Assembly: GCA_947630115.1 (NCBI GenBank)
Contig: CANRGG010000017.1
Span: forward strand, 1-40,676
From: an uncultured Clostridia bacterium
Lineage (GTDB): Bacteria > Bacillota > Clostridia > Christensenellales > Borkfalkiaceae
DNA length: 40,676 nt
Direction of reading: 5' to 3'
This document shows positions 2,396 to 29,587 of the stretch, in pieces; within the stretch, counting starts at the first letter, position 1, and each line of letters begins with the position of its first letter. Made by a program: the position numbers and the translations under genes. A model generated the notes under the pieces. It had not been told where the DNA came from and did no database searches. It worked only from the letters and a program-made list of their open reading frames with translations.

Positions 2396-3676
2396 TTATT
2401 CCACGAAATCGAACTCAGTCTCGCCGACGACAACGGTGTCCCCTTCCCGGCAGCCCATTTCGGACAGCGCTTTGAGGACGCCTCTCTTTTTGAGAATGCG
2501 CTGGAAATAGGTCATGGAGTCGGGATTGTTGAGCACGACGTTGCGGCAGAGCATATCGATGAGCCCGCCCACGAGGACAAAGGCGCCGTTTTCGTCGCGG
2601 AAAATCTCGAAAGACAGATCGCTCCCGTCCTCGAGCAAAAATTCCTCATCCGCGGGAATGCGCTCCTGCGGCGGAAGGGTTTTCAGAAGAGCAGCACAGG
2701 CGCGCACGAGCTCCTCCGTCCCCTCTCCTTTGAGCGCGGTGATGGGAAAGATCGCGTATTTTTTTCCGTACTTTTTGCGAAAACGTTTCAGGTTTTCCTC
2801 CGCGCCGAAGCAATCGCATTTGTTCGCGGCGACCAGCATGGGCAGCGCGGAAAGTTTTTCGGAATAAGCCGCAAGTTCCTCGTTGATCTTCTGGAAATCT
2901 TCGAGCGGGTCTCGCCCCTCCATGCCCGAAATATCGAGGACGTGGACGATCATACGGGTGCGCTCGATGTGGCGCAGGAAATCGTGCCCGAGTCCCGCGC
3001 CCTGCGACGCGCCCTCGATGAGTCCCGGGATGTCCGCCGCGACGAAGGAATCGTCGAAGCAGCGCACAACGCCGAGATTTGGCGAAAGGGTGGTAAAATG
3101 ATAGTCGGCGATCTTGGGTTTCGCCGCGGAGATCTTGGAAAGAAGGGTGCTCTTCCCGACGTTGGGGAATCCAACCAGCCCGACGTCGGCGATGACCTTC
3201 ATTTCGAGAATGAGGATATGGGGCTTTGCGAGCGTTCCCTTCTGCGAAAAGTTGGGCGCATGGCGGCGCGCGGTCGTAAAGCGGGCGTTGCCCTTGCCGC
3301 CCCTTCCCCCCTCGAGAAGGCGGATCCTCTCCCCGTCCTCGAAGGCGTCGCAGACGATTTTGCCCGACTCAAAGTCGCGCACGACCGTTCCGCAGGGCAC
3401 TTTGAGCGTTACATCCTCGCCGCGTTTCCCCGAACAAAGATTGCTGCCGCCGCGTTCGCCGTTCCCCGCAAAATATTTGGAGCAAAAACGGTAGGCGAGC
3501 AGATCGTGCACGTTCTTGTCGGCGACGACGTAGACCGAACCGCCGTCTCCCCCGTCTCCCCCGTCGGGACCGCACGCGGGCTTGCCCTTGTAGGCCTTGA
3601 AGGAATTCATGCCGTCGCCGCCGTCCCCCGCCTTCACGGTGACTTTGACTTTATCGGTAAAAGGTTTGTTGTCCAT
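2396..3676 (-). CDS. obgE: GTPase Obg (ribosome assembly / stringent response)
   Basis: This 426-aa protein is a complete Obg GTPase, which binds 50S precursors and ppGpp. Residues 1-158 form the glycine-rich Obg fold (ACGPDGGDGGDGGS; GGRGGKGN). The GTPase domain follows, with G1 GFPNVGKS (169-176), G3 DIPG (215-218) and G4 NKCD (about 287). Residues about 350-426 form the OCT domain, which is present in Firmicute and Thermus Obg. The ATG at 3676 has no ribosome binding site, but an extended -10 promoter ends only 6 bases upstream, so the mRNA is predicted to be leaderless. yhbY follows in the same operon. Confidence 0.97.
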   Translation of the reverse strand: MDNKPFTDKVKVTVKAGDGGDGMNSFKAYKGKPACGPDGGDGGDGGSVYVVADKNVHDLLAYRFCSKYFAGNGERGGSNLCSGKRGEDVTLKVPCGTVVRDFESGKIVCDAFEDGERIRLLEGGRGGKGNARFTTARRHAPNFSQKGTLAKPHILILEMKVIADVGLVGFPNVGKSTLLSKISAAKPKIADYHFTTLSPNLGVVRCFDDSFVAADIPGLIEGASQGAGLGHDFLRHIERTRMIVHVLDISGMEGRDPLEDFQKINEELAAYSEKLSALPMLVAANKCDCFGAEENLKRFRKKYGKKYAIFPITALKGEGTEELVRACAALLKTLPPQERIPADEEFLLEDGSDLSFEIFRDENGAFVLVGGLIDMLCRNVVLNNPDSMTYFQRILKKRGVLKALSEMGCREGDTVVVGETEFDFVE

Positions 3677-3985: not shown

Positions 3986-4809
3986 CATAACTTGCAGTTA
4001 TGGAGCTTCAAAGATTCGAAAAAAATAAAGGAAAGGAGAATCATTTATGGAAAAACAATCAACCAGTAAACTCCTGAGACTGATGGTTGCTGTGTTCGCA
4101 TTGTTCTTGCTCGTAATGACCGGTTCTGTGCTTTCCGCGTGCGGCGGCAACGTTGCACACGAGCACAAGTACGGTTCGCCCGAGCATACGAACCCTTCGA
4201 CATGCGGCTCCACAGGCTACGATGTTTACACGTGCAGCGAGTGCGGCGACAAGTATGCAGTCGTTACCGCTGCAACCGGCAAGCATACCTTCACAGATGG
4301 GATCTGCACGGTATGCGGTGTCAGCAATGGCGACAACTTGAAGGCGATCCTTGATCAGATCAACTCCAAGGTCGGCACCACGACGTCCCCCGAGAATGTG
4401 CACAAGCATAATTTCACGCAGGAAGTCAAGAAACTTGATCCTACTTGCCTCACGTTTGGCATCACGGTGATGAAGTGCGACTGCGGAAGCACTTCCGTGA
4501 CGAGCCTCGTTCAGGCGACGGGACATAAGTATTCCAAGGCGGGCGAAACCGGTAATCGTATCCCCTCCACCTGTACGACGAACGGACAGATCGAGGTCGT
4601 TTGCAGCCAGTGCGGCGATACATACTGGGAACCCAACAAGGACGACATGGCGCCCGGTCATGACTTCACCTACCGCACGAAGGAATTCGCGGAGAAGAAT
4701 GACCAGCCGGCAAACTGCGTTTCTCCCGCGCGCATTGCCTATAAGTGCACGCGCTGCGACGAGATCCAGTATGTCAATGTTGGCGACACCCTCGGCGGCC
4801 ACTTCTATG
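3986..4809 (+). repeat. 824-bp near-identical inverted repeat, left arm
   Basis: This segment is repeated in inverted orientation at 15980-16803. It spans the leader palindrome, the ribosome binding site, the signal peptide and codons 1-254 of the giant lipoprotein gene. The two arms give identical translations on the sense strand, and an antisense translation that differs by one residue, which fits a single substitution (T at 4778 versus C in the other arm). Identity stops abruptly at both ends. Confidence 0.95.
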
Positions 4810-7800
4810 AGAAGGACGAGAAGGGCAACGAAGTTTGGACGAAGGTCGAGGGCGAAAACACCGAGAGAGGAACAACTTCCGAAGAAGATATCGACGAAAA
4901 TCTGAAGAATTATGTTTCTATCGGTGAAGTCCTGAAGGAACGTGCTTGTATCTACTGCGGTGAGAAAGAGCAAAAGTGGTTCCCGAAGGAGCATGAACAC
5001 AACTTCATTCACACGACGAGCGAATTCAACCGTCTGACGGAAGTCACCTACACGGTGAAGAACGAGGACGGCACCGAAAAGACCTACAAGGAGACCCTTA
5101 CCAAGGAAAACTGCACGGAAGAGGGCGCGGAGAACTGGCATTGCGTATACGCGGGCTGCGACGCGCTTGAAAACGAAGCAGGTAAGTGGGAAAAGGTTGA
5201 AACGAAGAAGAAGGATGAGGCAGGCAAAGAGACCGAAGAGGTTGAAGTTACCTACGAGTATCGTCCTTCCGGCTGGGATAAAGATCCTACCAAGTGCAAG
5301 GAAGAGGAAACGGTTGATGAAGTCAAGCACACCTATGAATGGCGCGCGAAGCTCAACCACACCTATGCGGACAAACTGAAGACCTCCGACGGCAAGTACA
5401 CGAAGGAATCCGAAATCGAGTACATCACCGAAATCGACAAGGAAAACGGTAAGGTCGTGACCTCGCGCGGTGAGCACGAGACAAAGAACAACACCTCCTC
5501 CTGGTGGGGACAGACCTGCGAACTCTGCGGACATGAGATCGCATTCCAGACGAAAGATGAGGACGGCAAGAAGGTCCCCGATGTCACGAAAGAGATCCTC
5601 GTTATCGAAAGAGACGAGAAAGGCGAAGTAGAATTCACGGATAACGAAGAGTGGATCACGCGTGAGTGGCACTCCTGGGTGCTTTACACCGAGAAGAGTG
5701 ATACTGCTACGGATACCACGACTGCTAGTGGAACGGGAACCGGAACTGAGACTGAGACCACCGGCAAGAAACCGGAGAAGATCGATCCTCCTCAGACCCC
5801 CAGTGGGTATGAAAAGAACAAAGCTGCGACCTGCACGGAAGCAGGTTGGGACTGGTACTGGTGCCAGGATTCGCAGTGCAAGCAGATCCCGCTTTGGGTG
5901 AAGGTGATCCTGCCTCCGCTTGGCCATGATTGGGCGATTGAGAAGTTGGATGATCCTACCTGCGAAGGTGCGGGCGAGCTTGAACTTAAGTGCCAGAGAA
6001 AGGATTGCGGCGCAACTCTTACCCTGACGGTTGACAATTACAACGACGTCACCGACGCAGACGGCTGGACCTGGAACCGCCACACTCTGAAAACGCCTGA
6101 GTGGCCCGAAGCAACCAAGCCCGAAGGCTCCGAAGCAAAGGCAGAATACGCGGACGAATACGTCGATCTTTGGACGCTTGGCATCGAGGCGAGCGACGAC
6201 GATGACGCAGACAACGACGCTACGCCCGCGGCGGACGCAATCCGCAGGCTCAACAAGCTCAGCTGGAAGCAAAAGGCTGATAAAGAAAGCGGCGAAGGCG
6301 GCGGTGACGGCGACGAAGACAATAAATCGAAGGAATACACCCTTCGTCAGGCTCTTGAGCTCATCATTCCCACCGGTCACCACTGGAAGAAGATCCAAGA
6401 AGTTGATAAGAAGCTCTGCTACAACGACAAGGGCACCTCTTATTACTGCACCTGCGAGATGGAGAACTGCCACGAAGAGGGCGGCGCAACTCCGTCCACC
6501 GAAGCAAACAAAGACAAGGTTAAGTGCACGGCTATTTGGCTCGATGTTACGATGACCGGCCACCTTGTCGGCGAAAAAGAGACCGAAAAGAGCTTCAAGA
6601 CCTTCACGCTCTACGGTTTCTGCGGCACGAACAACCACGGCAATGTTGAAAACAACTTCTGCCACAACACTTACACGGTCACCTACTGCCCTGTCTGCTA
6701 TGCGATCATCAAGGTCGAGAAGTCGGGCGACAACTTCCGTCACTTCCCGTTCGACCGCGAGAAGCTGTTCGGTCACATGATGGCAAGCGCGCCCGTTGGC
6801 AAGCACACCTTGCAGGAAGTCATGGAAGATCCGACGCTCCTTCAGGAAGAAGAGGGCAACTATGCGGATTACGCGGCGGAATGGAACAAGACCCAGCGCG
6901 AGAAGTTCGTCAAGACCTGGATCGAGATCGACTCCTACTGGTTCAAGAAGGAAGGCGGCACGGCTGCTTCGCACAACCTCATTGACTACATCTGGCTGCG
7001 CGACGGCGACTTCGAGTGCTTCGACTGCTACAACCATGTCGGTCAGTTCAACGAGATCGAAGATCTTGTCAAGAACTACAAGACCGAACAGATCAAGTGG
7101 AGCCTGCTCTACTATGTCAAGGGCGCGAGCGGCGAGATGATCCTCGTTGAGGAGTCCAACCGTTACACCTATAATCCTTGCGAATATCAGTACTATTCGC
7201 AGTACAAGATCTGGTGCGAGACCGAGGGCAAGCAATTCACCTGGTACAGCACCATGAGAGACATGACCAATACCGAGTGGCAGAAGGTCGAAGGTAAGGA
7301 AGAAGGCGGCGACGTCACAATCGACGACGTGCTCGACGCAATCGGCAAGTACAAACTTGAAACCGTCAAAGACGGCAAAGAGTTGCAGCCGGATGGCAAG
7401 CACTATCTGGTTCCCGCGAACAAGTATTGGGAGCATGAGAACTTCAAACTTTCGAGCGACAACACCGTCACGATGGATTGGGTCTGCGCATTCTGCGGTT
7501 CGACGTTCGAACTTGAGGTCAAGTATGTAACGCCCGCGGCGGGAGCAGCGCAGGAAGAGCCTGCCGCTTACAAGGAGAACGTTTCCCTTGTCCATGAGGA
7601 CGCGAACAAGATCCTTCTGGTTGACATGACCGGCGTGAAGTTCAGCGACACGACGCTCAACAAGAGAAACGGCAAAGACAAGACCCCTATCTTCCAGCTT
7701 GGCGACCACCCGATCTATGGGAAGGACACGAAAGACGGGAAAACAACCGTCGGCGAAGGCATGATGGCTTACTATGCAAATGGCACCGTCATTATCACGG

Positions 7801-9668
7801 AGCTGGAAGGCAGCACCGATATCTGCGTGGCACACCGTGAGACCAATGGTTGGACTGCTGGCGGCAACTACTTCGAAGGTGGGCTGTGGAAGTGCAATGA
7901 CACGGTTCTTGGCAGCAAACTTCGTCCTCAGGACTTTGCGGATCCCAACGCGACGCCCGAAGACGGCAAACCGACCCTCTTCCAGACGATCTGGGCGGCA
8001 AACTACAGCAATGCTGGCCTTACCGACAGCAATGACGGCAACGGCGACGCGCGCAAGGCAGTTGCGTACCGTCTTGACAACCTGCTTCGTGAGGGCGGCG
8101 AGATCGTCGTCGGCGGCAACCTGTCCGATCAGCGCAAGATGAACGAAAAGACCGGTTCCAACTTCAAGTGGGATACGATCACGCCGGCAGCTCCTGCAGT
8201 TTCGTCGTTCATGCCTTTGGTTGGCGACACCCCTGCGGCTTCGATCCATCCTCTTGGATCGCTCAATCAGAAGGACGGCGGCGTTTACAGCTACCATGTG
8301 AAGGAAGATGGAACGGATTGCAAGGGCTATGCAGAGAAAAAGTGCGAGAGCGGGGACAACTGCTCCTGCGAAGGCTGCAAAGTGGACGGTACCTGCCACT
8401 GCGTGATTGTGCCGGTTCTGAACCTTGACGCGGGCACCGTGCTCGATCTGAACGGCAACACGCTCTATGCGAACATCTTCATCGGCGCGGTTGGCACAAG
8501 CGGCGAGGACGTTGCATTCGGCAACGACGGCTACGGCCACGAGATGACGGCGGGCGAAGTGACGGTCAAGAACGGCAAGATCGTCATGTCCCCGGCTGCG
8601 AAGATCCAGGTCGAGGGCGCGAAGGCTCATCTCACGCTTGAAAACGTCGAGATTTCCGGCGCGGTAGAGGGCATTCAGGCTTACAACGGCGCGACCATCA
8701 CGATCAAGAACTCCAGCCTGATCACGAAGGGCTTTGCGCTGACCTCGAACAACTGCAAGCAGACGGACAAAGGAAATGGCACGGCGGGCGACGGCGAAGC
8801 GAACTTTGAACTGTACAATTCGGCGTTCATTTCGACGGAACACACGGCGTTCTTCATGCCGGCGAAGGGGAATGTGCTTGCCGAGGGCTGCGAATTCTAC
8901 GGCTACGACATGGGCGTGTACCTGCGCGGTCACGACCTTGAGGAGAAGGCTGCGGCGGAAGGCACGGCTGCGACCCATGCGAAGTTTACGGATTGCTTGT
9001 TTGCGAAGGGCGACCAGTCCAGCGGCGCTGAGGCGACCTCGAGCGGCACGAACACGAAGCACTACGGCGCTCTGACGATCGGAAATGACAATCAGAACGG
9101 CAAGAGCTATGGTTCGATCAAAGATCTTGTCTTGCAGAATTGCGATTTCGAGATCGTGAAAGTTAACAAGACTAGCGAGAGCAGTGTTGGAGGGGCTTGG
9201 ACACCTGGATTCTGCGAAGCGAATGACGGCTTTGACCTTAACGGCGAGGTTGCTTCCCCTGGCTGCGATCTCAGCAGCGGGGATGGTCATACCAAATGCA
9301 CCGAAGAGAACTGCTGCCATAGAGCAATCGTTATCAACATCTATGGATGTTCGAAGATCGAAGGCGGCGCTTGCATGACTTCTGACAACGAGTGCAATGA
9401 GAAGTGCAAGCAGGATACGAACGGCAAAGTGACGATCCATATGGATACGGCTACGTTCAACCACCTCAAAGAGCACGCTCAGCGCTTCTCGCACGAGAAT
9501 ACGCAGGGCGAGAGCGCGACGGCGACTCTGACGAACCCGTTCCTTGGCTGCACGTTCTCTGACAGCAAGGTGCTGAAGGGTCAGTGCCAGAAGCTCCAGA
9601 TCTTTGTCGACGGCTCTGAAAAGTGTTTTGAGTGGCTGAAGCCTGACGAAGCGAAGTCTGGTTCGTAA
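4047..9668 (+). CDS. Giant Cys-rich surface lipoprotein A (1873 aa)
   Basis: The function is unknown. Residues 1-31 form a lipoprotein signal peptide with lipobox LSAC (lipidated Cys32), so the protein is probably anchored on the outer face of the membrane. Residues about 38-450 and several later stretches carry repeated modules of the type H-x-H...TC...G...Y.C..CG...GH, with many CxxC pairs. These resemble the TCTEEG/CSxCG repeats of gut Firmicute surface proteins and may bind metal or form disulfides. Acidic, Lys/Glu-rich linkers separate them. Residues about 1455-1710 look like a right-handed beta-helix (LDLNGNTLY, ITIKNSSL, FYGYDMGVYLRG). The C-terminal 150 residues are again Cys-rich. 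The start has an AAGGAG site 9 bases upstream. Its nearest relative is the inverted gene at 11502-16742. No convincing promoter is visible in the left flank. Confidence 0.9.
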   Translation: MEKQSTSKLLRLMVAVFALFLLVMTGSVLSACGGNVAHEHKYGSPEHTNPSTCGSTGYDVYTCSECGDKYAVVTAATGKHTFTDGICTVCGVSNGDNLKAILDQINSKVGTTTSPENVHKHNFTQEVKKLDPTCLTFGITVMKCDCGSTSVTSLVQATGHKYSKAGETGNRIPSTCTTNGQIEVVCSQCGDTYWEPNKDDMAPGHDFTYRTKEFAEKNDQPANCVSPARIAYKCTRCDEIQYVNVGDTLGGHFYEKDEKGNEVWTKVEGENTERGTTSEEDIDENLKNYVSIGEVLKERACIYCGEKEQKWFPKEHEHNFIHTTSEFNRLTEVTYTVKNEDGTEKTYKETLTKENCTEEGAENWHCVYAGCDALENEAGKWEKVETKKKDEAGKETEEVEVTYEYRPSGWDKDPTKCKEEETVDEVKHTYEWRAKLNHTYADKLKTSDGKYTKESEIEYITEIDKENGKVVTSRGEHETKNNTSSWWGQTCELCGHEIAFQTKDEDGKKVPDVTKEILVIERDEKGEVEFTDNEEWITREWHSWVLYTEKSDTATDTTTASGTGTGTETETTGKKPEKIDPPQTPSGYEKNKAATCTEAGWDWYWCQDSQCKQIPLWVKVILPPLGHDWAIEKLDDPTCEGAGELELKCQRKDCGATLTLTVDNYNDVTDADGWTWNRHTLKTPEWPEATKPEGSEAKAEYADEYVDLWTLGIEASDDDDADNDATPAADAIRRLNKLSWKQKADKESGEGGGDGDEDNKSKEYTLRQALELIIPTGHHWKKIQEVDKKLCYNDKGTSYYCTCEMENCHEEGGATPSTEANKDKVKCTAIWLDVTMTGHLVGEKETEKSFKTFTLYGFCGTNNHGNVENNFCHNTYTVTYCPVCYAIIKVEKSGDNFRHFPFDREKLFGHMMASAPVGKHTLQEVMEDPTLLQEEEGNYADYAAEWNKTQREKFVKTWIEIDSYWFKKEGGTAASHNLIDYIWLRDGDFECFDCYNHVGQFNEIEDLVKNYKTEQIKWSLLYYVKGASGEMILVEESNRYTYNPCEYQYYSQYKIWCETEGKQFTWYSTMRDMTNTEWQKVEGKEEGGDVTIDDVLDAIGKYKLETVKDGKELQPDGKHYLVPANKYWEHENFKLSSDNTVTMDWVCAFCGSTFELEVKYVTPAAGAAQEEPAAYKENVSLVHEDANKILLVDMTGVKFSDTTLNKRNGKDKTPIFQLGDHPIYGKDTKDGKTTVGEGMMAYYANGTVIITELEGSTDICVAHRETNGWTAGGNYFEGGLWKCNDTVLGSKLRPQDFADPNATPEDGKPTLFQTIWAANYSNAGLTDSNDGNGDARKAVAYRLDNLLREGGEIVVGGNLSDQRKMNEKTGSNFKWDTITPAAPAVSSFMPLVGDTPAASIHPLGSLNQKDGGVYSYHVKEDGTDCKGYAEKKCESGDNCSCEGCKVDGTCHCVIVPVLNLDAGTVLDLNGNTLYANIFIGAVGTSGEDVAFGNDGYGHEMTAGEVTVKNGKIVMSPAAKIQVEGAKAHLTLENVEISGAVEGIQAYNGATITIKNSSLITKGFALTSNNCKQTDKGNGTAGDGEANFELYNSAFISTEHTAFFMPAKGNVLAEGCEFYGYDMGVYLRGHDLEEKAAAEGTAATHAKFTDCLFAKGDQSSGAEATSSGTNTKHYGALTIGNDNQNGKSYGSIKDLVLQNCDFEIVKVNKTSESSVGGAWTPGFCEANDGFDLNGEVASPGCDLSSGDGHTKCTEENCCHRAIVINIYGCSKIEGGACMTSDNECNEKCKQDTNGKVTIHMDTATFNHLKEHAQRFSHENTQGESATATLTNPFLGCTFSDSKVLKGQCQKLQIFVDGSEKCFEWLKPDEAKSGS

Positions 9669-9704
9669 ATCTACACATGTATCCTATCCCTTGGGATTGG
9701 GGTA

Positions 9705-9767
9705 CAAACAGGCGGCGATCATTTAACTAACTACAGTCTGGTTGATTGATAGTCCAATAGCAAGGAA
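9705..9767 (+). repeat. 63-bp 3'-UTR repeat, left copy
   Basis: This segment is identical, in inverted orientation, to 11393-11455. It lies just after the stop of the first giant gene and runs into its terminator stem. Similarity continues weakly back to about 9683 (the GTATCCT and CCCTTGGGA words). Confidence 0.95.
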
Positions 9768-9806
9768 ACCCTTGGGAGGGAACTCCCAAGGGTTTCCTTA
9801 TTTTTT
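9762..9806 (+). terminator. Intrinsic terminator of giant gene A
   Basis: A perfect 16-bp stem (9762-9777 with 9784-9799) with a 6-base loop is followed by ATTTTTT. The matching terminator of the second giant gene is its mirror image. Confidence 0.95.
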
Positions 9807-9809
9807 GTG

Positions 9810-11350
9810 TTTTGTGTGATTTTCCCCCGTTTTGCCCGTGCTTTGCCCCGTTTGCGTTATCCCGTGCGGTTTTTTGGGAAGCCCCCGCTTGCGGAATTTG
9901 GGCGCGCCGAAAGAGCAGATCGTTTTTCCCCCGTTTTGCGAGCCCCCGTGCATTCTGCCTGTCGTCCGCGCGTTTTAGCGGCGTTTTGCGCCCCGTTTGC
10001 GTTATCCCGTGCGGTTTTTTGGGAAGTCCCCGCTTATGGAATTTGGGCGCGCCGAAAGATCGCTTTTTCCCCCGTTTTGCCCCGTGCTTTTCCCCGTTTT
10101 GCTCCGTGCTTTTCCCGTTTGCCCCGTGCTTTCCCCAGCATTCTGTGTGCCTTTTTCCGCGCGTTTTAGCGGACTCGCAACTTCTGTTTTTCGCCTGCCC
10201 GCGCTGTGCTTGAGCCCCCGTGCATTCTGCCGTCTGCACGGTATGCGGCGCGCAGGAAGGACGAGCCCCCGCTTGCGCTTGTCCCGCCCCCCGTTTTGGA
10301 ATTGACGAGGGGTTAGCCTCCGCCCGCCGTTTTATGCGCATTATTGGGCGGCGCGAACCGTTTGCTTGCGGAATGCTCCTGCCCGCGGGGTTTTAGGCGA
10401 ATTTGGGAAGCCGCGCTTGCGGAACACTGCGTGCAGAAAGGGCAGACGCTTTTCCCCCGTTTGCGTTATCTCCCGCATTCTGCGTGCCTTTTTCCGCGCG
10501 TTTTAGTGGGTTCCGGCGTGGACCCGAGCTGTTTACTCGTTTTAGCGGGCTGGCAGTTTCTGTTCGCCGCCTGCCCGCGCTGTGCCTGAGCTTTCCCCAG
10601 CATTCTGCGTGCCGTCCGCGCATTATGCTGCGCGCTTGCCCGTTTGCGTTATTCCGTGTTTTCCCCGTTTTGCCCCGTGCTTTTCCTAGCATTCTGCACG
10701 CCGTCCGCGCGTTTTAGTGGGCTCCCGCGTGGACCCGAGCTGTTTACACGTTTTAGCGGGCTGGCAGTTTCTGTTCGCCGCCTGCCCGCGCTGTGCCTGA
10801 ACCTTTCCTCACGCGTTCTGCCGTTCGCGCGTTTTAGCGGCGTTTTGCGCCCCGTTTGAGCTATCCCCAGCGGTTATGGAAGCGGCGAGCCGTTTGATCT
10901 CGCCCGCGGTTTGGAAATGGGCGAGCCGGGGCGGACCGGCTCGTTTTTGACACTTGGGCGAGCCGTGTGCCCCGCTCCCCCTTTTTGGAATTGGCGAGCC
11001 GGGGCGGGCCGGCTCGTTTTTGACACTTGGGCGGGCCGTTTATCCAACCGCCGTTTTGGTTATGTTGCCGCGCAAAATCCCTCTGCCCGCGGTTTTGGAA
11101 AGTCCCCGCACGTGCCGTTTGGGGGATCGGCCCTGTTTGCGTCCGATCAAAAAAAGAATAAATTCAAAAAAATGTGACAAAATAGAGTTTGAATCCAATT
11201 TTCGGCACAGAGGCGCGACGGACGAGCCGCACAGAGGCTCGGCGAACGAGCGAGGGAAAATTAACTTTGCGCCGGGGCATGGCGGACGAGCGCGGCAAAA
11301 ATTTTCGGCGCCAGGGCGCGGCGGAAAAGCGGGGGAAAAGCATAAAAAAC
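9810..11350. repeat. Non-coding repeat-rich spacer between the two giant genes
   Basis: No credible gene is seen in this 1.5 kb; the open frames here have low-complexity Lys/Arg/Pro translations and no ribosome binding sites. Imperfect tandem and interspersed copies are visible. A unit of about 145 bp starts at 9846 and again at 9991. A block of about 90 bp occurs at 10501 and 10712. Short C/T-rich units built on CCCCGTTTTG fill 10070-10135. A 73-bp unit at 10922 and 10995 carries a CGAGCCGG/CCGGCTCG hairpin followed by TTTTT in both copies. Words such as GTTTTAGCGG and CATTCTGC recur throughout. The region is strongly biased to C and T on the plus strand. Confidence 0.8.
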
Positions 11351-11354
11351 CCAT

Positions 11355-11398
11355 AAAAACAAGGAAACCCTTGGGGGTTTCCCCCCAAGGGCTTCCTT
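11355..11398 (-). terminator. Intrinsic terminator of giant gene B
   Basis: Read on the minus strand, a 17-bp stem (11398-11382 with 11377-11361, one G-U pair) with a short loop is followed by a T-run (11359-11355). It is the counterpart of the terminator at 9762-9806. Confidence 0.9.
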
Positions 11399-11455
11399 GC
11401 TATTGGACTATCAATCAACCAGACTGTAGTTAGTTAAATGATCGCCGCCTGTTTG
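11393..11455 (-). repeat. 63-bp 3'-UTR repeat, right copy
   Basis: This is the inverted, identical copy of 9705-9767, just downstream of the second giant gene. It is better conserved than the neighbouring 3' coding sequences, which suggests a conserved RNA element or a recombination endpoint. Confidence 0.95.
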
Positions 11456-11501
11456 CACCCCCTCCCAAGGGAAAGGATACAGTTGTGTGTTTGCCTTAAG
11501 G

Positions 11502-14500
11502 TCAGCTCTTCGTGATCTCCAGCTTTTCGCCATCCTCGACCGTCCAGTTCAACTCAAGTTCGCTCTGTCCGATGAGGAAGATCTTAAGCTTGCAGCACTT
11601 GCCCTTCAGCTCCGCGCCGTCCGTGAATGTGCAACCAAGGAACGGGTTCGTAACTTCTTCAGCATCCTCATGAGAGAATTTCTGAGCATGCGTGATCAGG
11701 TTCTTGAGCGTCGCGTCGTCAAGATAGATTGTGACCTTGCCGTTGTCATCTTGCCCGCACTGTGTGTTGCACTCGTCGGTACCGGTCATGCAATTTCCGC
11801 CCTCGATATCGGAGCAGCCGCAGATGTTGATGACGATCGCTCTATGGCTGCACTTATCTTTGTCGCACTTGGTATGACCTTCCCCGCTGCTGAGATCGCA
11901 GCCAGGGGAAGCAACTTCGTCCTTGAGATCCCAACCCTCGTCAGCTTCGCCAACTGCAGGCGTCCAGTCGCCACTACCAGGCGTACCAACACCCTCCTCG
12001 TTCTTCGCAACCTTCACGATTTCGAAGTCGCAGTTCTTGAGCTCAAGCTTCTTAATCGAGCCGTAACCGTCCTTCGCACTCTTGTTGTCGTTACCAATCG
12101 TGAGTGCGCCGTAGTGCTTCGTGTTCGTGCCGCTCGTCGTGGACTCAGCGCCGCTCGCCTGGTCACCCTTTGCGAACAAGCAGTTCACAAAGCGTGCGTG
12201 GCTGCTGCCGTCGGCCTTCTCTTCGAGGTTGTCGCCACGGAGGAACACGCCCATGTTGTAGCCGTAGAACTCGCAATCCTTCGCGTCCACAGAACCTTCG
12301 CCAGGCATGAAGAACGCAGTATCCGTCTTGGAGATGAACGCGGAGTTCTCAAGCACCCAAACCGTGCTCTTGCCCGTCGTCTCGGCGTTGTTCGCCTCGA
12401 TCGCACGGCCGCTCTCCGCCACGATGCAGGAATTCTTGATCGTGATCGTGCTGTTCTGGCCTGCGAACAAGCCCGTCTCGCCCGCCGTCACTTCCACGCC
12501 GTCGAGCTCAAGGCTCACGTCCTTGCTGCTATTATCGCCAACGACCTGAATTCTGCCTTTGTCCTCAAGGACGATCTTGCCGTTCTTGATGACGGAGTGG
12601 CCGCCCTTCACGCCTGCGATCGTGCCCGTGTTGACAAACAGGTTGCCGTAGAAGGTGTTGTCATTGAGGTCGATCGTCGTATCCGCGGGAACAACAAAGA
12701 CATTGACTGCGTTGTCGCCCTGCGTCTGGACACAGCCGTCGCCCGTCGTTCTCTGAGTACCAAAGCCGCAGCTCTTGTTTGCGCCGTCGCCAGTGGTCGG
12801 GACGGGTTCGCCGACGTTGCCGCCAAGGACGATCTCGCCGCCACGCTTGAAGTATGCATCAAGCAATTTGTTCGTTTCTTTCTTCTGTTCTTCGCCGTAA
12901 GTGTCGCCGGTGCCGATCTTGAACATGTCGTTCCAGACTGCCGTGTAAGCGTCCTTATCGGTCGGGTCAACGAAGTCTTCCGGACGAAGAACGCTACCGA
13001 TTCTCATTCTGTCCACAGCCCAGACCCAAGTATCGCTCTTTCCTGCCTCGAAGTAGCCTGTGGTGTACTTCGCGGGTCCGCGACGACCGATAACGATATC
13101 CTTTGTATCATTTTCCCAAAGTTTCATGAGGACAGTTGCCTGCTCGGAATAGAAGGCCGTCTCGCCGCCCGTAATGGTGACGTTCGAGTCAATACCGTTA
13201 CTGACGACCGTCTTGTAAACATCGTTCCAAGCCTTGTTCTCGCCATAGTACCAACGATCGTCGATCTCGAAGATTCTATCGCCCGTATTACCCGTTCTCT
13301 GGTTCAAACCGTACTTCTCATCGAACTTAATGCCGCTCATGTCAACAAGAAGGATGAGCTTCTCGTCCGCGTTCACGAGCTTGACGTTGCTCGGATCGAC
13401 CGTCGTCTCGCTATCTGCTGCCGCGGGCTCAGACTTCGGAGCTTCGTACTTGACCTGAAGCTCGAACGTCTTGCCGCAGAACACGCAGATCCAATCCATG
13501 GTCGCTTCGCCGTTCGCGCCGCGCTCGTAGTTCTCTTTCTCCCAATATTCCTTCACAGGAATGAGGTAATGCACGCCGTCAGGATGAACTTCGTTGCCGT
13601 CCGCGTCCTTCTGGACCTGCTCGATGTACTGGCCTGCGCCATAGCGCGCCTCGGGATCGGACCCGATGTACTTCATGCCGCACTTGCAGACAACCTCGTA
13701 CTGCAAATAGTACTGGTATTCGCAGACGTTGTAGGTGAGTTTGTTGAGATCGCTGATCTCCATCATCGCGCCGCTGTCAAGCTTGACATAGTAGTGCATG
13801 GTCGCGGTCATGGTGTGATCATTCGCCTCAGGCTTATGCGTTGCCACATACTGGTGGAGATTGTCGAAGCAGTCGAAGCAGTACAGCGAGAAGCCGCCGC
13901 CGTCTTCCTTGTCGCCGCTCTTGAAGTAGAAGTAAGGACGGATATCCTCTTCGAGGGCGCTCGAGGTCTGGTTGTTGAACCACCATTCCTCAATGCCGAT
14001 CCAAACTCTTGCATACTCAAGACGAGCCGCGCGCGCCTCGTCGCTCATGCAGCGAGCCGTCTCCTCCGCGCCGTAAACTTCGAGGAATTTCTCGCCGTTT
14101 TCGACCTTGTAGTCTGCGGGGATGTAGGTGTTGTAAAGCGCTTCGATGTTCTTTCTGTCGAACGGGAAGTGACGATAGTTCTGACGATCTTCGACCTTCT
14201 CGCGGCTGAGCTGCAGACCGCAGGTCTTGCAGTAGGTTACCTTATAAATGTCGTGGTTGAGCCCGAACGCCGTGCCGCAGACGCCGTATTCATAGTAGAT
14301 ACCGGTGTCGATCTTACCGTCAGCGTTCTTCTTGTGCTCTTGTTTCGGGTTTTCATCGCGCCATTCGTTCTTGCAGCCCTCGTCGGTGCATTTGCCGTCC
14401 ATCTTGCAATCGCACTTGTAGAGCTGGCTGGGAACGCCGAAGCAGTAGTCAGCAGTGACCGTCGCGTCGCCGCTGGTCGATTTCTTCCAATGATGTCCCG

Positions 14501-16742
14501 TCGGGATGAGCATTTTCAGAGCGTCAGCCAAGGTGTAGGTCTTGGGCGCGTTGGTATCTTCTTCGCCCTCGTCGCTATCGGTTCCGTCAACGGGCTTCTC
14601 TCTCCAAGCAAGGGAGCCGAGCTTTCTCACCGCGTCATCCGCGTCCTCGTCACTGCTTGCGTCGATTCCGAGTTCCCAAAGTTTGAGATAATCTTCAGCG
14701 TACTCGATCTCGCCTTCTTCCGACGGCCATTCGCCGGGGGTCTTCAGGGTGTGGCGGTTCCAGGTCCAGTCGTCAGCCGTCGTGACCTCGCTGTAATTCT
14801 CAACCGAGAGGGTCAAGCTTGCGTTGCAGCCATTTCTCTGGCATTCGAGCTTGAGCTCGCCTGCCTTCTCGCAGGTAGGATCCTTAAATTCCGCGATAGC
14901 CCAATCATGGCCGAGCGGAGGCAGGATCACTTTGACCCAACGAGGAATAGATTTGCACTCGGAGTCCTGGCACCAGTACCAGTTCCAGCCTTCTTCCGTG
15001 CAGGTCGCAGCCTTGTTTGCTTCGTATCCATCGGGCTCTGCCGGGGGTTCGATCTTTTCTTTCTTGGGTTGTTCGGGAGTCGCGGTATCCGCTGCATCTT
15101 TCCCATTGTAAAGCACCCAGGAGTGCCATGCGCGGGTGATCCAAGCGTCATTTCCATCAAAAACAACTCCGCCATTATCGTCTCTTTCGATGACAAGAAT
15201 TTCCTTCGTGACATCGGGAACTTTCTTGCCTTCCTCTTCCTTGGTCTGGAACGCGATCTCGTGTCCGCAGATCGAGCAGGTCTGTCCGAACCAGGTAGAG
15301 GTGTTGTTCACAGCCTCGCCTTCCTTATGGCTGACGATGACGTTGCCCTCTTCGTCCTTGTCGATTTCCGTGATCTCTTTGATCTCGTCTTCGTGCTCGA
15401 ACTCGCCGTCGTCGTTCTTCAGTTTGTCCGCATAGGTGTGGTTGAGCTTCGCGCGCCATTCATAGGTGTGCTCAACGCCGTCAACCGTATCCTTCTCTTT
15501 GCGGTCTTTGAGCTCTTCAGCCCAGCCGGACGGACGATATTCATAGGTAACTTTGGTTGTAGCCTCTTCACCTTCCGCAGGCTCTACCGTTGTTTCAACC
15601 TTTTCCCACTTACCTGCATCGTTTTCAAGCGCTTCGCAGCCCGCATAAACGCAGTGCCAGTTCTCCGCGCCCTCTTCCGTGCAGTTTTCCTTGTTAAGGT
15701 CTGCTTCGAACGTCTTTTCGACGCCGTCGATCGTAGCCGTGTAGGTGACTTTCGTCAGACGGTTGAATTCCGTCTTCGTGTGCTGGAAGTTGTGGTCATG
15801 ATCTGCCGCAACGGTCTTGACCTGCTTCTCACCGCAGTAAATGCAAGCGCGCTCCATGTCCACGGTGCCGACATCAATATAGCTCTTCAGATTTTCGTCG
15901 ATGGTAGGCTTCTCGGCCGCGCTGCCTTTCTCGCTGCCTTCGACCTTCGTCCAAACTTCGTTGCCGTTTTCATCTGTCGCATAGAAGTGGCCGCCGAGGG
16001 TGTCGCCAACGTTGACATACTGGATCTCGTCGCAGCGCGTGCACTTATAGGCAATGCGCGCGGGAGAAACGCAGTTTGCCGGCTGGTCATTCTTCTCCGC
16101 GAATTCCTTCGTGCGGTAGGTGAAGTCATGACCGGGCGCCATGTCGTCCTTGTTGGGTTCCCAGTATGTATCGCCGCACTGGCTGCAAACGACCTCGATC
16201 TGTCCGTTCGTCGTACAGGTGGAGGGGATACGATTACCGGTTTCGCCCGCCTTGGAATACTTATGTCCCGTCGCCTGAACGAGGCTCGTCACGGAAGTGC
16301 TTCCGCAGTCGCACTTCATCACCGTGATGCCAAACGTGAGGCAAGTAGGATCAAGTTTCTTGACTTCCTGCGTGAAATTATGCTTGTGCACATTCTCGGG
16401 GGACGTCGTGGTGCCGACCTTGGAGTTGATCTGATCAAGGATCGCCTTCAAGTTGTCGCCATTGCTGACACCGCATACCGTGCAGATCCCATCTGTGAAG
16501 GTATGCTTGCCGGTTGCAGCGGTAACGACTGCATACTTGTCGCCGCACTCGCTGCACGTGTAAACATCGTAGCCTGTGGAGCCGCATGTCGAAGGGTTCG
16601 TATGCTCGGGCGAACCGTACTTGTGCTCGTGTGCAACGTTGCCGCCGCACGCGGAAAGCACAGAACCGGTCATTACGAGCAAGAACAATGCGAACACAGC
16701 AACCATCAGTCTCAGGAGTTTACTGGTTGATTGTTTTTCCAT
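11502..16742 (-). CDS. Giant Cys-rich surface lipoprotein B (1746 aa)
   Basis: This is the paralogue of the gene at 4047-9668, in convergent orientation. Residues 1-254 are identical to A, including the signal peptide and lipobox LSAC (Cys32). From residue 255 the proteins diverge into a mosaic: conserved islands (KENCTEEGAENWHCVYAGC, YEYRPSGW, HTYEWRAKLNHTYADKLK, HEIAFQTK) alternate with unrelated acidic linkers and indels. The middle keeps H...C..C modules. A beta-helix-like region (ATVLMKL, TIDLNDNTFYGNLF, STITIKNSCIV) and the Cys-rich end (VASPGCDLSSG...HRAIVINICGCS) are shared with A. The function is unknown; a cell-surface adhesin or shield is an inference. Two consensus promoters precede it, so this is the copy most likely to be expressed. 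Confidence 0.9.
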   Translation of the reverse strand: MEKQSTSKLLRLMVAVFALFLLVMTGSVLSACGGNVAHEHKYGSPEHTNPSTCGSTGYDVYTCSECGDKYAVVTAATGKHTFTDGICTVCGVSNGDNLKAILDQINSKVGTTTSPENVHKHNFTQEVKKLDPTCLTFGITVMKCDCGSTSVTSLVQATGHKYSKAGETGNRIPSTCTTNGQIEVVCSQCGDTYWEPNKDDMAPGHDFTYRTKEFAEKNDQPANCVSPARIAYKCTRCDEIQYVNVGDTLGGHFYATDENGNEVWTKVEGSEKGSAAEKPTIDENLKSYIDVGTVDMERACIYCGEKQVKTVAADHDHNFQHTKTEFNRLTKVTYTATIDGVEKTFEADLNKENCTEEGAENWHCVYAGCEALENDAGKWEKVETTVEPAEGEEATTKVTYEYRPSGWAEELKDRKEKDTVDGVEHTYEWRAKLNHTYADKLKNDDGEFEHEDEIKEITEIDKDEEGNVIVSHKEGEAVNNTSTWFGQTCSICGHEIAFQTKEEEGKKVPDVTKEILVIERDDNGGVVFDGNDAWITRAWHSWVLYNGKDAADTATPEQPKKEKIEPPAEPDGYEANKAATCTEEGWNWYWCQDSECKSIPRWVKVILPPLGHDWAIAEFKDPTCEKAGELKLECQRNGCNASLTLSVENYSEVTTADDWTWNRHTLKTPGEWPSEEGEIEYAEDYLKLWELGIDASSDEDADDAVRKLGSLAWREKPVDGTDSDEGEEDTNAPKTYTLADALKMLIPTGHHWKKSTSGDATVTADYCFGVPSQLYKCDCKMDGKCTDEGCKNEWRDENPKQEHKKNADGKIDTGIYYEYGVCGTAFGLNHDIYKVTYCKTCGLQLSREKVEDRQNYRHFPFDRKNIEALYNTYIPADYKVENGEKFLEVYGAEETARCMSDEARAARLEYARVWIGIEEWWFNNQTSSALEEDIRPYFYFKSGDKEDGGGFSLYCFDCFDNLHQYVATHKPEANDHTMTATMHYYVKLDSGAMMEISDLNKLTYNVCEYQYYLQYEVVCKCGMKYIGSDPEARYGAGQYIEQVQKDADGNEVHPDGVHYLIPVKEYWEKENYERGANGEATMDWICVFCGKTFELQVKYEAPKSEPAAADSETTVDPSNVKLVNADEKLILLVDMSGIKFDEKYGLNQRTGNTGDRIFEIDDRWYYGENKAWNDVYKTVVSNGIDSNVTITGGETAFYSEQATVLMKLWENDTKDIVIGRRGPAKYTTGYFEAGKSDTWVWAVDRMRIGSVLRPEDFVDPTDKDAYTAVWNDMFKIGTGDTYGEEQKKETNKLLDAYFKRGGEIVLGGNVGEPVPTTGDGANKSCGFGTQRTTGDGCVQTQGDNAVNVFVVPADTTIDLNDNTFYGNLFVNTGTIAGVKGGHSVIKNGKIVLEDKGRIQVVGDNSSKDVSLELDGVEVTAGETGLFAGQNSTITIKNSCIVAESGRAIEANNAETTGKSTVWVLENSAFISKTDTAFFMPGEGSVDAKDCEFYGYNMGVFLRGDNLEEKADGSSHARFVNCLFAKGDQASGAESTTSGTNTKHYGALTIGNDNKSAKDGYGSIKKLELKNCDFEIVKVAKNEEGVGTPGSGDWTPAVGEADEGWDLKDEVASPGCDLSSGEGHTKCDKDKCSHRAIVINICGCSDIEGGNCMTGTDECNTQCGQDDNGKVTIYLDDATLKNLITHAQKFSHEDAEEVTNPFLGCTFTDGAELKGKCCKLKIFLIGQSELELNWTVEDGEKLEITKS

Positions 16743-16803
16743 AAATGATTCTCCTTTCCTTTATTTTTTTCGAATCTTTGAAGCTCCATAACTGCAAGTT
16801 ATG
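15980..16803 (-). repeat. 824-bp near-identical inverted repeat, right arm
   Basis: This is the inverted counterpart of 3986-4809. The distance between the inner ends of the arms is about 11.2 kb. Outside position 16803 the sequence differs completely from the left flank: here a consensus promoter abuts the repeat. Confidence 0.95.
16789..16803 (-). promoter_or_regulatory. Palindrome at the start of the giant-gene leader (possible operator)
   Basis: On the minus strand ATAACT-TGC-AGTTAT is a perfect inverted repeat about 8-10 bases after the transcription start predicted from the nearer promoter. The same palindrome is at 3987-4001 before giant gene A. A related one, sharing TAACTTGC and GTTA, sits at the same place relative to the farther promoter (16998-17015). 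Confidence 0.55.
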
Positions 16804-17027: not shown

Positions 17028-17056
17028 ATTATAACAAAACAAATTTGTCCTGTCAA
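17028..17056 (-). promoter_or_regulatory. Perfect consensus promoter P1 upstream of giant gene B
   Basis: On the minus strand TTGACA (17056-17051), a 17-base spacer and TATAAT (17033-17028) preceded by TGT form a full consensus plus extended -10. There is no convincing gene directly behind it: a hairpin with a T-rich tail follows within 150 bases. It therefore makes either a short RNA or an attenuated leader of giant gene B. Confidence 0.9.
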
Positions 17057-17937: not shown

Positions 17938-19065
17938 TTAGCGCGAAAGTTTGCGCCGTTTCCCGCCGACGCTCTGCGTGGAAAGGATCCCGCTCGAGAC
18001 AAGCTGTTTTTTCGGGAGCTCCCGCTCGATCGCGTCGCGCAGCAGGCTCTCGAGGAGATTTTTCGCGGCAAGCAAACTTTCGCCGCCGAAGAGGTAGGTC
18101 GCAAGCGTCCCCGGCACGGTGTTGAGCTCATTGAAATAGAGCTCGTCGCCGCTTAAAAGAAAGTCCGCCCGCACAATGCCGTTCATGTCGAACGCGTCGA
18201 GGATTTGGCGCAAAATCTCCTTGATCTTCTCCGCCGTTTCTTCGGGGATCTCAGCGGGCTGCCGGGAAGTTCGCCCACCCGTCGACTCATACTTTTCCTC
18301 GAAGGAGAGAATGGGCGCCGCGGAAAAGACCTCCTCCACTTCGGACAGGACCACCTCGCCGCCCCGGCGGAATGCCGCGCAGTTCAAGTCCCGCTTTGAC
18401 GGAAGATATTTTTCAACGAGCGCCGCGCCGTCCAAGGAAAAACACAGCGAAAGGGCAGAACGAAGGGCGTCCTCGTTTTCGGCGACCGAAATGCCGATAC
18501 TCGAGCCGAGCTTCGAGGGCTTCACGATGACGGGAAATCCGAGATGGGAGGAGATCCGCCCGATCTGTGCAGCAGGATCTTGCCGCCATTCCTTTTCGCG
18601 CACGATGAGATCGTCCACGACGGGGATCTCCATTCCCCGCAGGAAAATTTTGGAGAGGGTCTTGTCGAGGAAGAGCGCGGATTCCGCCGCCGCGGGCGAA
18701 GCGGAGACGATCTCGTGCCATTGAAGGAGCGCGGAGAGCCCCCCGCCCTCGCCGAGTCCCCCATGGCAGCAGTTGAGCGCGCAGTCGATCGGGTACTGTT
18801 TCTTTTGCCGCTTCTTCTCGCACAGCCCGCCGCGGGTCAGACGGACGGGCAAAAACCCCTTTTGATCTTTTCTTCCCTTGGGGGGATCGACAAAATCCGC
18901 GACCTCGCGCGCCGAGCGGACGAGAAACATTTCATTTTGCTCGTCGAGATAGACCGGCAGGACCTCGAAAGTGCCGCGCAGAAGATTGACGGCGTAGATC
19001 CCCGTGATGACGGAGATCTCACGCTCGTTTGATCTGCCGCCGAAAAAAACCGCTGCTGTTTGCAT
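17938..19065 (-). CDS. ddl: D-alanine--D-alanine ligase
   Basis: This 375-aa ATP-grasp enzyme joins two D-Ala residues in the cytosol for the peptidoglycan stem peptide; the product is the substrate of the MurF-type ligase encoded next to it. N-terminal FFGGRSNEREISVITG, ATP-grasp KPSKLGSSIGIS and the metal-binding C-terminal motif RADFLLSGDELYFNELNTVPG are all present. The length is close to the family norm. The ATG at 19065 has a GGAGG site 8 bases upstream and an AT-rich TATATAAAAT stretch before it that may be a -10 box. The gene is separated from murF by a terminator and a long inverted repeat, so it is probably transcribed on its own. Confidence 0.95.
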   Translation of the reverse strand: MQTAAVFFGGRSNEREISVITGIYAVNLLRGTFEVLPVYLDEQNEMFLVRSAREVADFVDPPKGRKDQKGFLPVRLTRGGLCEKKRQKKQYPIDCALNCCHGGLGEGGGLSALLQWHEIVSASPAAAESALFLDKTLSKIFLRGMEIPVVDDLIVREKEWRQDPAAQIGRISSHLGFPVIVKPSKLGSSIGISVAENEDALRSALSLCFSLDGAALVEKYLPSKRDLNCAAFRRGGEVVLSEVEEVFSAAPILSFEEKYESTGGRTSRQPAEIPEETAEKIKEILRQILDAFDMNGIVRADFLLSGDELYFNELNTVPGTLATYLFGGESLLAAKNLLESLLRDAIERELPKKQLVSSGILSTQSVGGKRRKLSR

Positions 19066-28386: not shown

Positions 28387-29142
28387 TCAGGATTCAAAGA
28401 CGAAATACCGGAGCAGCGCGAACAAAACGAGCAGCGCGATGAACAGGGCGAGCGCGGAAAAGGCGATCGCCGTCCGCTTCTTCGCCGCGCCGTCCTGTGC
28501 GCCCTGCGGGGAGAGTTTTTCGCTCAGACGGTTGATGAGGCGGGAAACATGCTTGTAGACAAAGAAGCAGAGCAGGCTCGCAATGAGACAGCGCAGGACG
28601 TTGAAGGGCAGCACGGAGACCCAGAGGTAGAAGGAATAGAAATTCGCCTCCGTGATCGCGGGGAAGAGCGGCTTCATCATGCCGAGAAGGGGCTGGAAAC
28701 TTCCGCCGAACATGATCTCGACGTAAAAGGGAATGAGGAGGAAGCGATTCGCGAAGATCGCCGCGACGACCGAACAGACGGAGCCCGCGACAAGCGAGAG
28801 CACGGCGCCCTTCAGGGTGCGGAACCGCCGATAGAGCAGCCCCGCGGGGATGACGAACGCCCAGCCGATCAGAAGATTGGCAAGCTCGCCGACGAACATA
28901 TTCGCCGTTCCGAGGCAGACGAGCTTGATCAAAATCTTCACGACGACGATGAGACAGCCCGAGAGCGGTCCGAGCGCGAACGTGCCGATGAAGAGCGGGA
29001 TGTCCGAAAAATCGAACTCGAGAAAGCCCGGGAACGCAAAGGAGAGCGGAAACTTCGCGATATGCAGAAGCCCGGTGAGCGCCCCGAACAGCGCGATCAT
29101 GACGATCCGCGTGGGATTGAAAAAGGAACGATCGTTTGACAT
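28387..29142 (-). CDS. ribU: Riboflavin ECF transporter substrate-binding subunit RibU
   Basis: This is a 251-aa membrane protein of the RibU family, the S component that binds riboflavin and works with the shared ECF energizing module, which is not in this window. The start chosen is the ATG at 29142 with a GAGGGAG site; a longer in-frame reading would begin inside the riboswitch. About six hydrophobic segments form the usual S-component core (IVMIALFGALTGLLHIAKFPL; LEFDFSDIPLFIGTFALGP, where the FDxSDxP motif is typical of RibU). An added C-terminal stretch with a basic linker (AAKKRTAIAF) and one more membrane segment ends the protein. The FMN riboswitch in the leader confirms the vitamin. 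Confidence 0.93.
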   Translation of the reverse strand: MSNDRSFFNPTRIVMIALFGALTGLLHIAKFPLSFAFPGFLEFDFSDIPLFIGTFALGPLSGCLIVVVKILIKLVCLGTANMFVGELANLLIGWAFVIPAGLLYRRFRTLKGAVLSLVAGSVCSVVAAIFANRFLLIPFYVEIMFGGSFQPLLGMMKPLFPAITEANFYSFYLWVSVLPFNVLRCLIASLLCFFVYKHVSRLINRLSEKLSPQGAQDGAAKKRTAIAFSALALFIALLVLFALLRYFVFES

Positions 29143-29198
29143 AAAAATATCTCCCTCGAAAAGCATTGGATTTTGCAAGCGCGAAAGGTTTTCGGCTG

Positions 29199-29225
29199 AA
29201 AAAAAGCCCCGCAAAAATGCGGGGC
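29199..29225 (-). terminator. Riboswitch-controlled terminator in the ribU leader
   Basis: On the minus strand a 7-bp GCCCCGC/GCGGGGC stem (29225-29219 with 29212-29206) with a 6-base loop is followed by seven T. It lies between the FMN aptamer and the ribU start, as expected for transcriptional OFF control by FMN. Confidence 0.9.
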
Positions 29226-29254
29226 GAAGCACTTGCGCGTTGCAAATGCTTTTC

Positions 29255-29370
29255 GATCTTTTCTCATCCGGACTATACCGTCGGTACGGGAATTTCACCC
29301 GTTCGGGAAGCGCGACGCTTCTTCGCAGACTTTAACTGCCGGTGGAGAATTTCACTCCGCCCCAAAGATT
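29255..29370 (-). ncRNA. FMN riboswitch (RFN element)
   Basis: On the minus strand the conserved RFN blocks occur in order: AATCTTTGGGGCGGAGTGAA, ACCGGCAGTTAAAGTCTGCG, GTGAAATTCCCGTACCGAC and GGTATAGTCCGGATGAGAAA, closing with AAGATC that pairs with the opening. The aptamer binds FMN; the downstream terminator gives the expression platform for ribU. Confidence 0.95.
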
Positions 29371-29587
29371 TCCTCACCGATTTTCCGACAGAAAATCGAT
29401 GAGATTCAATTTTTTGATTTTATAATTCACAGCGCGGAGCAAAACCACGCTTTTGCGGCAGCGCACACAATTTGCCGCATTCCTGCGGCTTCATGTCCAT
29501 AGAAGCGACCGCGACGACCGTACTAAACAAGGCAAATAAGCCCGTTTCCTCACGGAAATTTGTCGCAAGACAAATTTCGTGAACTTT
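29371..29587. other. Intergenic region between glyA and the FMN riboswitch
   Basis: No gene is seen. It contains GC-rich TTGCGGCA/TGCCGCA hairpin words near 29455-29490 and the dispersed hairpin at 29550-29582. A TATAAA -10-like box for the riboswitch transcript is visible near 29420 on the minus strand, without a clear -35. Confidence 0.5.
29550..29582. repeat. Dispersed hairpin element, copy after glyA
   Basis: Outer TCAC (29550-29553) pairs with GTGA (29579-29582). Inside are a one-base bulge and a perfect 10-bp stem (29555-29564 with 29569-29578) around a 4-base loop. On the minus strand it reads TTCAC, stem, CCGTGAGGAAA. Copies with the same flanks but other stems occur at 34048-34080, 34220-34260 and 34389-34428. 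Confidence 0.75.

Follow-up and report, generated by a model that had tools for sequence, protein, structure and literature searches.

A candidate inversion switch between two giant lipoprotein genes in an uncultured gut Clostridia bacterium

The window (the whole 40,676-nucleotide stretch of DNA that was analyzed, contig C17 of a 1.61-Mb genome in 54 contigs) carries two giant lipoprotein genes, A and B, which face each other between obg and ddl and begin with inverted copies of the same 824 bp, with 1 mismatch (Table 1). The best explanation is that the locus probably consists of an expression site and a silent cassette, switched by inversion at these arms, an event that we infer rather than observe. 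The ddl-side gene would be transcribed from a promoter (P2) just outside its arm; the obg-side gene repeats the leader and start of that gene, along with its first 254 codons, and appears to lack a promoter of its own. Crossing-over between the arms by general recombination would invert ~11 to 12 kb and place the other body under the fixed P2 in frame, switching the surface lipoprotein. Gene conversion between the arms would keep them alike, and the bodies may serve as alternative surface antigens or adhesins.

Table 1. Features of the locus, in window coordinates
Feature	Position	Strand	Description
obg, left flank	2396..3676	-	Pfam GTP1_OBG, 2.3e-49; transcribed away from gene A
Left arm (obg side)	3986..4809	+	Codons 1-254 of gene A, with its start and signal peptide, behind a 61-nt leader
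Gene A	4047-9668	+	1873 aa; putative silent cassette; no promoter-like site toward gene A in the obg gap
Conserved 3′ element of gene A	9738..9761	-	Written on the strand opposite gene A
Terminator-like hairpin behind gene A	9762..9799	+	Hairpin and T-run, by eye
Terminator-like hairpin behind gene B	11361..11398	-	Hairpin, by eye
Conserved 3′ element of gene B	11399..11422	+	Written on the strand opposite gene B
Gene B	11502-16742	-	1746 aa; putative expressed copy; promoter-like site just outside the gene B arm
Right arm (ddl side)	15980..16803	-	Leader identical to that of the left arm and codons 1-254 of gene B
P2	16818..16846	-	Consensus match: TTGACA-17-TAAAAT, -10 box preceded by TG; separated from the right arm by 14 bases
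P1	16895..17056	-	Second predicted promoter (TTGACA 17051-17056, TATAAT 17028-17033) with a leader and a terminator-like hairpin, all conserved; lies between ddl and P2
ddl (D-Ala-D-Ala ligase), right flank	17938..19065	-	Pfam Dala_Dala_lig_C, 4.2e-37; same direction as gene B

Arms, bodies, and predicted promoters

The inverted-repeat comparison matched 3986-4853 with 15936-16803 (868 nt, 99% identity). Identity is exact over 3986-4777 (792 bp), a single mismatch falls at 4778 (T/C), and the copies are identical on to 4809, beyond which mismatches are frequent; on the outer side, the match ends at 3986. This comparison agrees with an earlier note on the same DNA, which had described facing giant lipoprotein genes with 824-bp inverted arms and one difference, and the arm alignment confirmed its claim that the arms reach through codons 1 to 254 of both genes. 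No third copy of the arm was found across the 54-contig genome, and the window sequence contains no N letters. Behind the arms, the bodies of genes A and B are ~44% identical. Codon alignment of the two genes gave 100% nucleotide identity over columns 1 to 200, then 87, 77, 76, 72, and 75% per hundred columns, a minimum of 46%, and a return to 72% near the 3′ ends. The mosaic divergence that the earlier note had seen in the bodies is thus borne out (87%, then ~75%, 46%, and 72%), and its picture of a constant head joined in frame to a variable body is supported.

An assembler might have copied one sequence into both arms, and short reads do not easily resolve an exact repeat of 792 bp. However, the arms contain a mismatch, the bodies have diverged, other assemblies show an equal layout, and many database proteins have shared heads. 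Such an artifact, a concern of the earlier note, is scarcely credible: the arms are real, and since the arrangement recurs in other genomes, neither chance nor a one-off assembly error accounts for it.

Long open frames of 1811 codons (4059-9494, minus strand) and 1747 codons (11487-16730, plus strand) run antisense to genes A and B, probably as an effect of codon use. The region between the genes (9830-11330) is GC-rich with many short repeated phrases, as judged by eye, and a 204-amino-acid open reading frame (ORF) between the genes (9727-10341) has no Pfam match.

Promoters were predicted by sigma70-like consensus scoring with weights of our choosing; the scores refer to predicted sites, not measured starts. 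For all nine facing pairs found in the genus (see below), the ddl side scored 14.5 to 15.5, with TTGACA (TTGACC in G110), a 17-nt spacer, and TG followed by TANAAT. The same range was obtained for single genes at this site (8 of 8 scored). Scores on the obg side were 8.8 to 10.9 in 9/9 pairs, and 32 to 98% of shuffles reached such scores. Sites scoring at least 12 in the obg gap pointed toward the giant gene in 0/9 pairs and toward obg in 9/9 (scores of 13.5 to 13.6); the latter detections indicate that the scan was able to find sites in this gap. Because obg is transcribed away from gene A, read-through from obg cannot serve gene A. The right-hand promoter proposed in the earlier note corresponds, in this consensus scan, to a promoter-like site found on the ddl (right) flank only, in 9/9 pairs.

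The P1 region was defined in an alignment of 12 genomes, all of which conserve it and from which its window coordinates are derived. Its consensus fold contained helices without both-sided changes, and Rfam gave no match in the leader and hairpin region. The P1 leader and hairpin are possibly an attenuator or a small RNA.

Behind the stop codon of every complete gene examined, a conserved element is followed by a terminator-like hairpin. On the opposite strand, this 3′ element reads CTATTGGACTATCAATCAACCAG; with at most 3 mismatches, the 103 genomes contain 19 such sites, spread over 14 of them (those on G104 C126, G111 C54, and G117 C96 are not tied to a complete gene), and 0 for the reversed control. 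Viral contigs yielded 0 matches to the 3′ element. In G117 (C96, L105; 4-27 and 1463-2737), the element is found past the obg 3′ end, so that the usual order is reversed, through either a local rearrangement or a misassembly. The string CAATCAACCAG also occurs in sense at the gene start, in codons 4 to 7, so that the mRNA has a 3′ end complementary to its own start; eleven bases at 4056-4066 and 16723-16733 (codons 4 to 7 of genes A and B) are exactly complementary to the 3′ elements. The gene start in G091 reads CAATCAACCGG, with which a G-U pair is still possible. Predicted duplexes between start and 3′ end, computed for six genes, were 0.9 to 3.4 SD better than the mean of 200 shuffles, and the best shuffle was better in every case. 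Since some shuffle beat each predicted duplex, pairing of the mRNA start with the 3′ end is only a suggestion.

The same locus in related genomes

We searched 103 genomes of the genus with the head alignment, Obg, and Ddl. Of the 101 genomes that matched Obg or Ddl, 59 had both on a single contig, and a facing pair between ddl and obg was found in 9 of the 103: G000 (the window), G035, G111, G036, G104, G110, G125, G027, and G062. Two of these pairs are contiguous, one has both sides resolved, one consists of flanks plus an 18.1-kb loop contig, and five are represented by flank contigs only. The contiguous pairs are those of G000 and G035; the G035 arms are 401 bp long and 100% identical, begin with a head different from that of G000, and were assembled across in one orientation. 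In G111, the two sides are on separate contigs and have positions -62 to +101 (164 bp) in common, with one mismatch, before they diverge. The G111 bin (L078, L079, L080) contains two Ddl genes and three full heads, the third gene being of the single type, and so mixes two organisms.

For 12 genomes, the end of the Obg contig was compared with the end of the Ddl contig, both read outward. Terminal bases were shared in six (77 bases in G036, G104, G110, G125, and G027; 130 in G062) and absent in the other six (G123, G117, G001, G076, G087, and G013). A head was present at the Obg-contig end only in G001 and G076 and at the Ddl-contig end only in G117. Identical 77-base ends are the expected break of a two-copy inverted repeat in an assembly with k = 77, and the NODE-style record names fit a SPAdes-type assembler. 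The two ends of the G110 loop contig (C31, 18,121 bp), followed inward, agree over exactly 77 bases before diverging, and the contig carries two open frames (2881 and 2752 codons) that face each other. Searches of the G036, G125, G027, and G062 bins turned up no body. The Obg of G036 is almost the same as that of G111, so the independent pair lineages may number eight.

A single gene occupies the ddl-obg site in 8 genomes; it is contiguous with obg in G007, G121, G081, G068, and G091, and obg is on another contig in G006, G024, and G114. Pairs and singles are intermixed on an Obg tree of 25 chosen genomes, on which the pair label changes 4 times. G085 has a ddl-obg gap of 16.8 kb; the matches listed by the head search include no strong one for this genome. 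A family-wide search of 398 genomes with protein P0155 (E value of 1e-25) revealed no further pair. The order-wide pattern search matched 0/396 genomes; its pattern was without the extra T of G000 and so missed even the window. An initial scan of genome contigs confirmed no relative.

A dedicated site-specific recombinase might instead flip the segment at a short site in the leader or start region, with the long arms as a by-product, and the strong conservation of the start region between genomes and the position of the G000 arm, which begins exactly at a palindrome, would fit such a site. Yet single-gene genomes share the start-region conservation, the palindrome of G035 falls beyond the arm that its two genes share, and the arms vary in length (824, 401, and 164 bp in G000, G035, and G111). 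The earlier note had seen no recombinase nearby, and a Pfam search of 26 window translations found none of the site-specific type. We consider this mechanism very unlikely. The palindrome itself, CATAACTTGCAGTTATG at the outer end of the arm, was rejected as a recombination site; as its position in G035 indicates, it is not general, and it is not kept in the single-gene genomes shown.

Separate exchange of heads and bodies

To compare proteins, we collected 243 sequences from the window and three protein searches, one of which contributed the 120 best of 6586 matches; this list leans toward relatives of the query. The 85 retained were at least 1200 amino acids long with the family QST near the start and included the window's two. 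The first 75 residues were clustered at 90% (heads) and the part after residue 350 at 80% (bodies). Among the matches listed, these 85 proteins combine 15 head types with 35 body types in mixed fashion: head 3 (13 proteins) occurs with 6 bodies, head 2 (14 proteins) with 11, head 1 (17 proteins) with 4, and heads 4, 5, and 6 with three each. Conversely, and again among the matches listed, some bodies carry more than one head: heads 3, 4, and 5 for body 3; heads 3 and 4 for body 4; heads 3 and 5 for body 8; and heads 12 and 13 for body 7. Head 0, with 22 proteins and one body type, and seven single-protein heads in the same list count against free mixing.

Heads are alike within a genome and different between genomes. 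Besides the window, four pairs among the matches listed have a longest contig of equal size (98,671 bp for P0158/P0162 and 20,421 bp for P0087/P0102) and presumably share that contig; their heads are 100% identical in P0158/P0162 and P0087/P0102, 74% identical in P0156/P0168, and 79% identical in P0167/P0190. Gene A of G035 and P0144 are 89% identical overall, with 54/76 identical residues over columns 1 to 120, 817/835 over columns 121 to 1000, weaker agreement around columns 1001 to 1280, and near-identity after that. The change of head is located where G035's own two genes part, at the arm boundary. P0144 in turn matches P0087 at 229/231 residues over columns 1 to 280 and is 55% identical to it overall. 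In a quartet (P0162, P0158, P0160, and P0161), identities over columns 1 to 250 were 206/241 and 164/168 within head groups and 89/163 and 90/163 between them; over columns 1001 to 1600, they were 173/518 and 178/514 within head groups and 495/554 and 427/552 for orthologous bodies, and the middle of the alignment is a mosaic. One body with two heads, switching at the arm boundary, and the mixed combinations of heads and bodies make recombination at the arms well supported by these sequence comparisons.

Gene conversion could act without any switch, on stable tail-to-tail paralogues whose 5′ ends are converted, with the obg-side gene as a silent store and an orientation that hardly changes. 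It accounts for identical heads and sharp boundaries no less well than inversion. Neither comparison of the G000 bodies with G111 and G035 nor the three protein searches revealed a flipped locus, and the obg-side genes of G000 and G111 are alike: where the bodies are comparable, the G111 obg-side gene is closer to gene A than to gene B, in keeping with a fixed orientation too. However, occasional expression would make it easier to see why a long, open silent gene stays in frame across several genomes, and crossovers, too, are expected where recombination converts long inverted repeats. We regard conversion without a switch as unlikely. Against the expressed/silent switch, we also count the single-orientation assembly of G035, the eight single-gene genomes, the four bins in which no body was found, head 0 with its one body, and the heads of only 74 and 79% identity in two presumed same-contig pairs. 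Two of the three protein searches found the window's head in no proteins beyond the window's own two, and neither they nor the initial scan of genome contigs revealed a second strain of this species.

A broader proposal, which we offer tentatively and think doubtful as a whole, is that the shared head serves much of the genus as a platform for recombination. Arriving bodies would be taken in behind related heads, the heads would be homogenized, the pair would flip, and complementarity between the mRNA start and 3′ end would add control at the RNA level, yielding a combinatorial, population-wide repertoire of giant lipoproteins. The window also carries dprA and a comM-like (Mg chelatase) gene at 38867-40674 (minus strand). 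Families of the dprA/comM type are linked to DNA uptake in other bacteria, and these genes could bear on the import of new bodies.

Products and comparison with known switches

The products of genes A and B have a lipoprotein-type signal at the N terminus, as judged by eye, 3.5 to 3.7% Cys, and 9 to 10 CxxC motifs. Pfam and NCBIfam gave no match above the cutoff for P0001, P0002, or six relatives, and naming the family by a known entry was given up. For NCBIfam NF058595 (lipo-invert tail domain; curated cutoff, 37 bits), P0003 reached 16.5 and P0001 and P0002 were unlisted. As to an S-layer identity, neither product of genes A and B had a Pfam or NCBIfam match above the cutoff. The AlphaFold model of the C-terminal 560 residues of gene A was weak (mean pLDDT of 50.1), and Foldseek matches to this predicted part were largely beta-helix proteins (0/60 at an E value of 0.001; best, 0.065); PDB sequences gave no match. 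A beta-helix fold for the C-terminal part is a hint only. Our literature search on antigenic variation, on invertible lipoproteins and lipo-invert, and on sap and intragenic inversion listed nothing recognized as this giant Cys-rich lipoprotein family, which is weak evidence that the family is not yet in print.

Elsewhere in the window, an FMN riboswitch (29252-29373, minus strand; 102.7 bits) lies upstream of an ECF transporter component (28387-29298), and an 828-amino-acid ORF (23894-26380, minus strand) has no Pfam match and lies in a stretch of strong AT skew.

If the flip is true, a group of uncultured gut Clostridia varies a giant surface protein without a dedicated recombinase, and protein databases already hold a wide range of bodies joined to few heads. 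For measuring surface variation directly in gut metagenomes, P2, the arm, and the 3′ element offer ready markers, and they account for short-read assembly breaks at such loci.

Hin/Gin, shufflons, and hsdS inversion use short sites and a dedicated recombinase that is usually encoded nearby. The present locus is like them in that alternative coding ends or promoters would be swapped by inversion and unlike them in having no recombinase among the 26 window translations tested. In the sap S-layer system of Campylobacter fetus, conserved 5′ ends are the homology for inversion, and the promoter is on the invertible element. Conserved 5′ ends of surface-protein genes are likewise available as homology here, but P2 is outside the arm.

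The slpA and slpB genes, reportedly described by Boot et al. in 1996, are said to lie in opposite orientation with a shared 5′ region and a promoter outside the segment. In Lactobacillus acidophilus, slpA and slpB are an active and a silent surface-protein gene that are interchanged by inversion of their chromosomal segment, as described in two publications (PMC6176008, PMC7858073). As in that system, the locus here has a pair of related, oppositely oriented genes whose 5′ regions are shared, and the consensus scan points to a single promoter outside the segment with the second gene lacking one (9/9 pairs). Inversion has been observed in L. acidophilus, whereas here it is inferred from sequence. 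The L. acidophilus genes encode S-layer proteins and those here giant Cys-rich lipoproteins without a Pfam match; the shared part here reaches 254 codons, and the pair recurs across the genus, with heads and bodies recombining between lineages. On present evidence, the architecture works like that of slpA/slpB, in a new protein family and a new taxon and with new head-body combinatorics.
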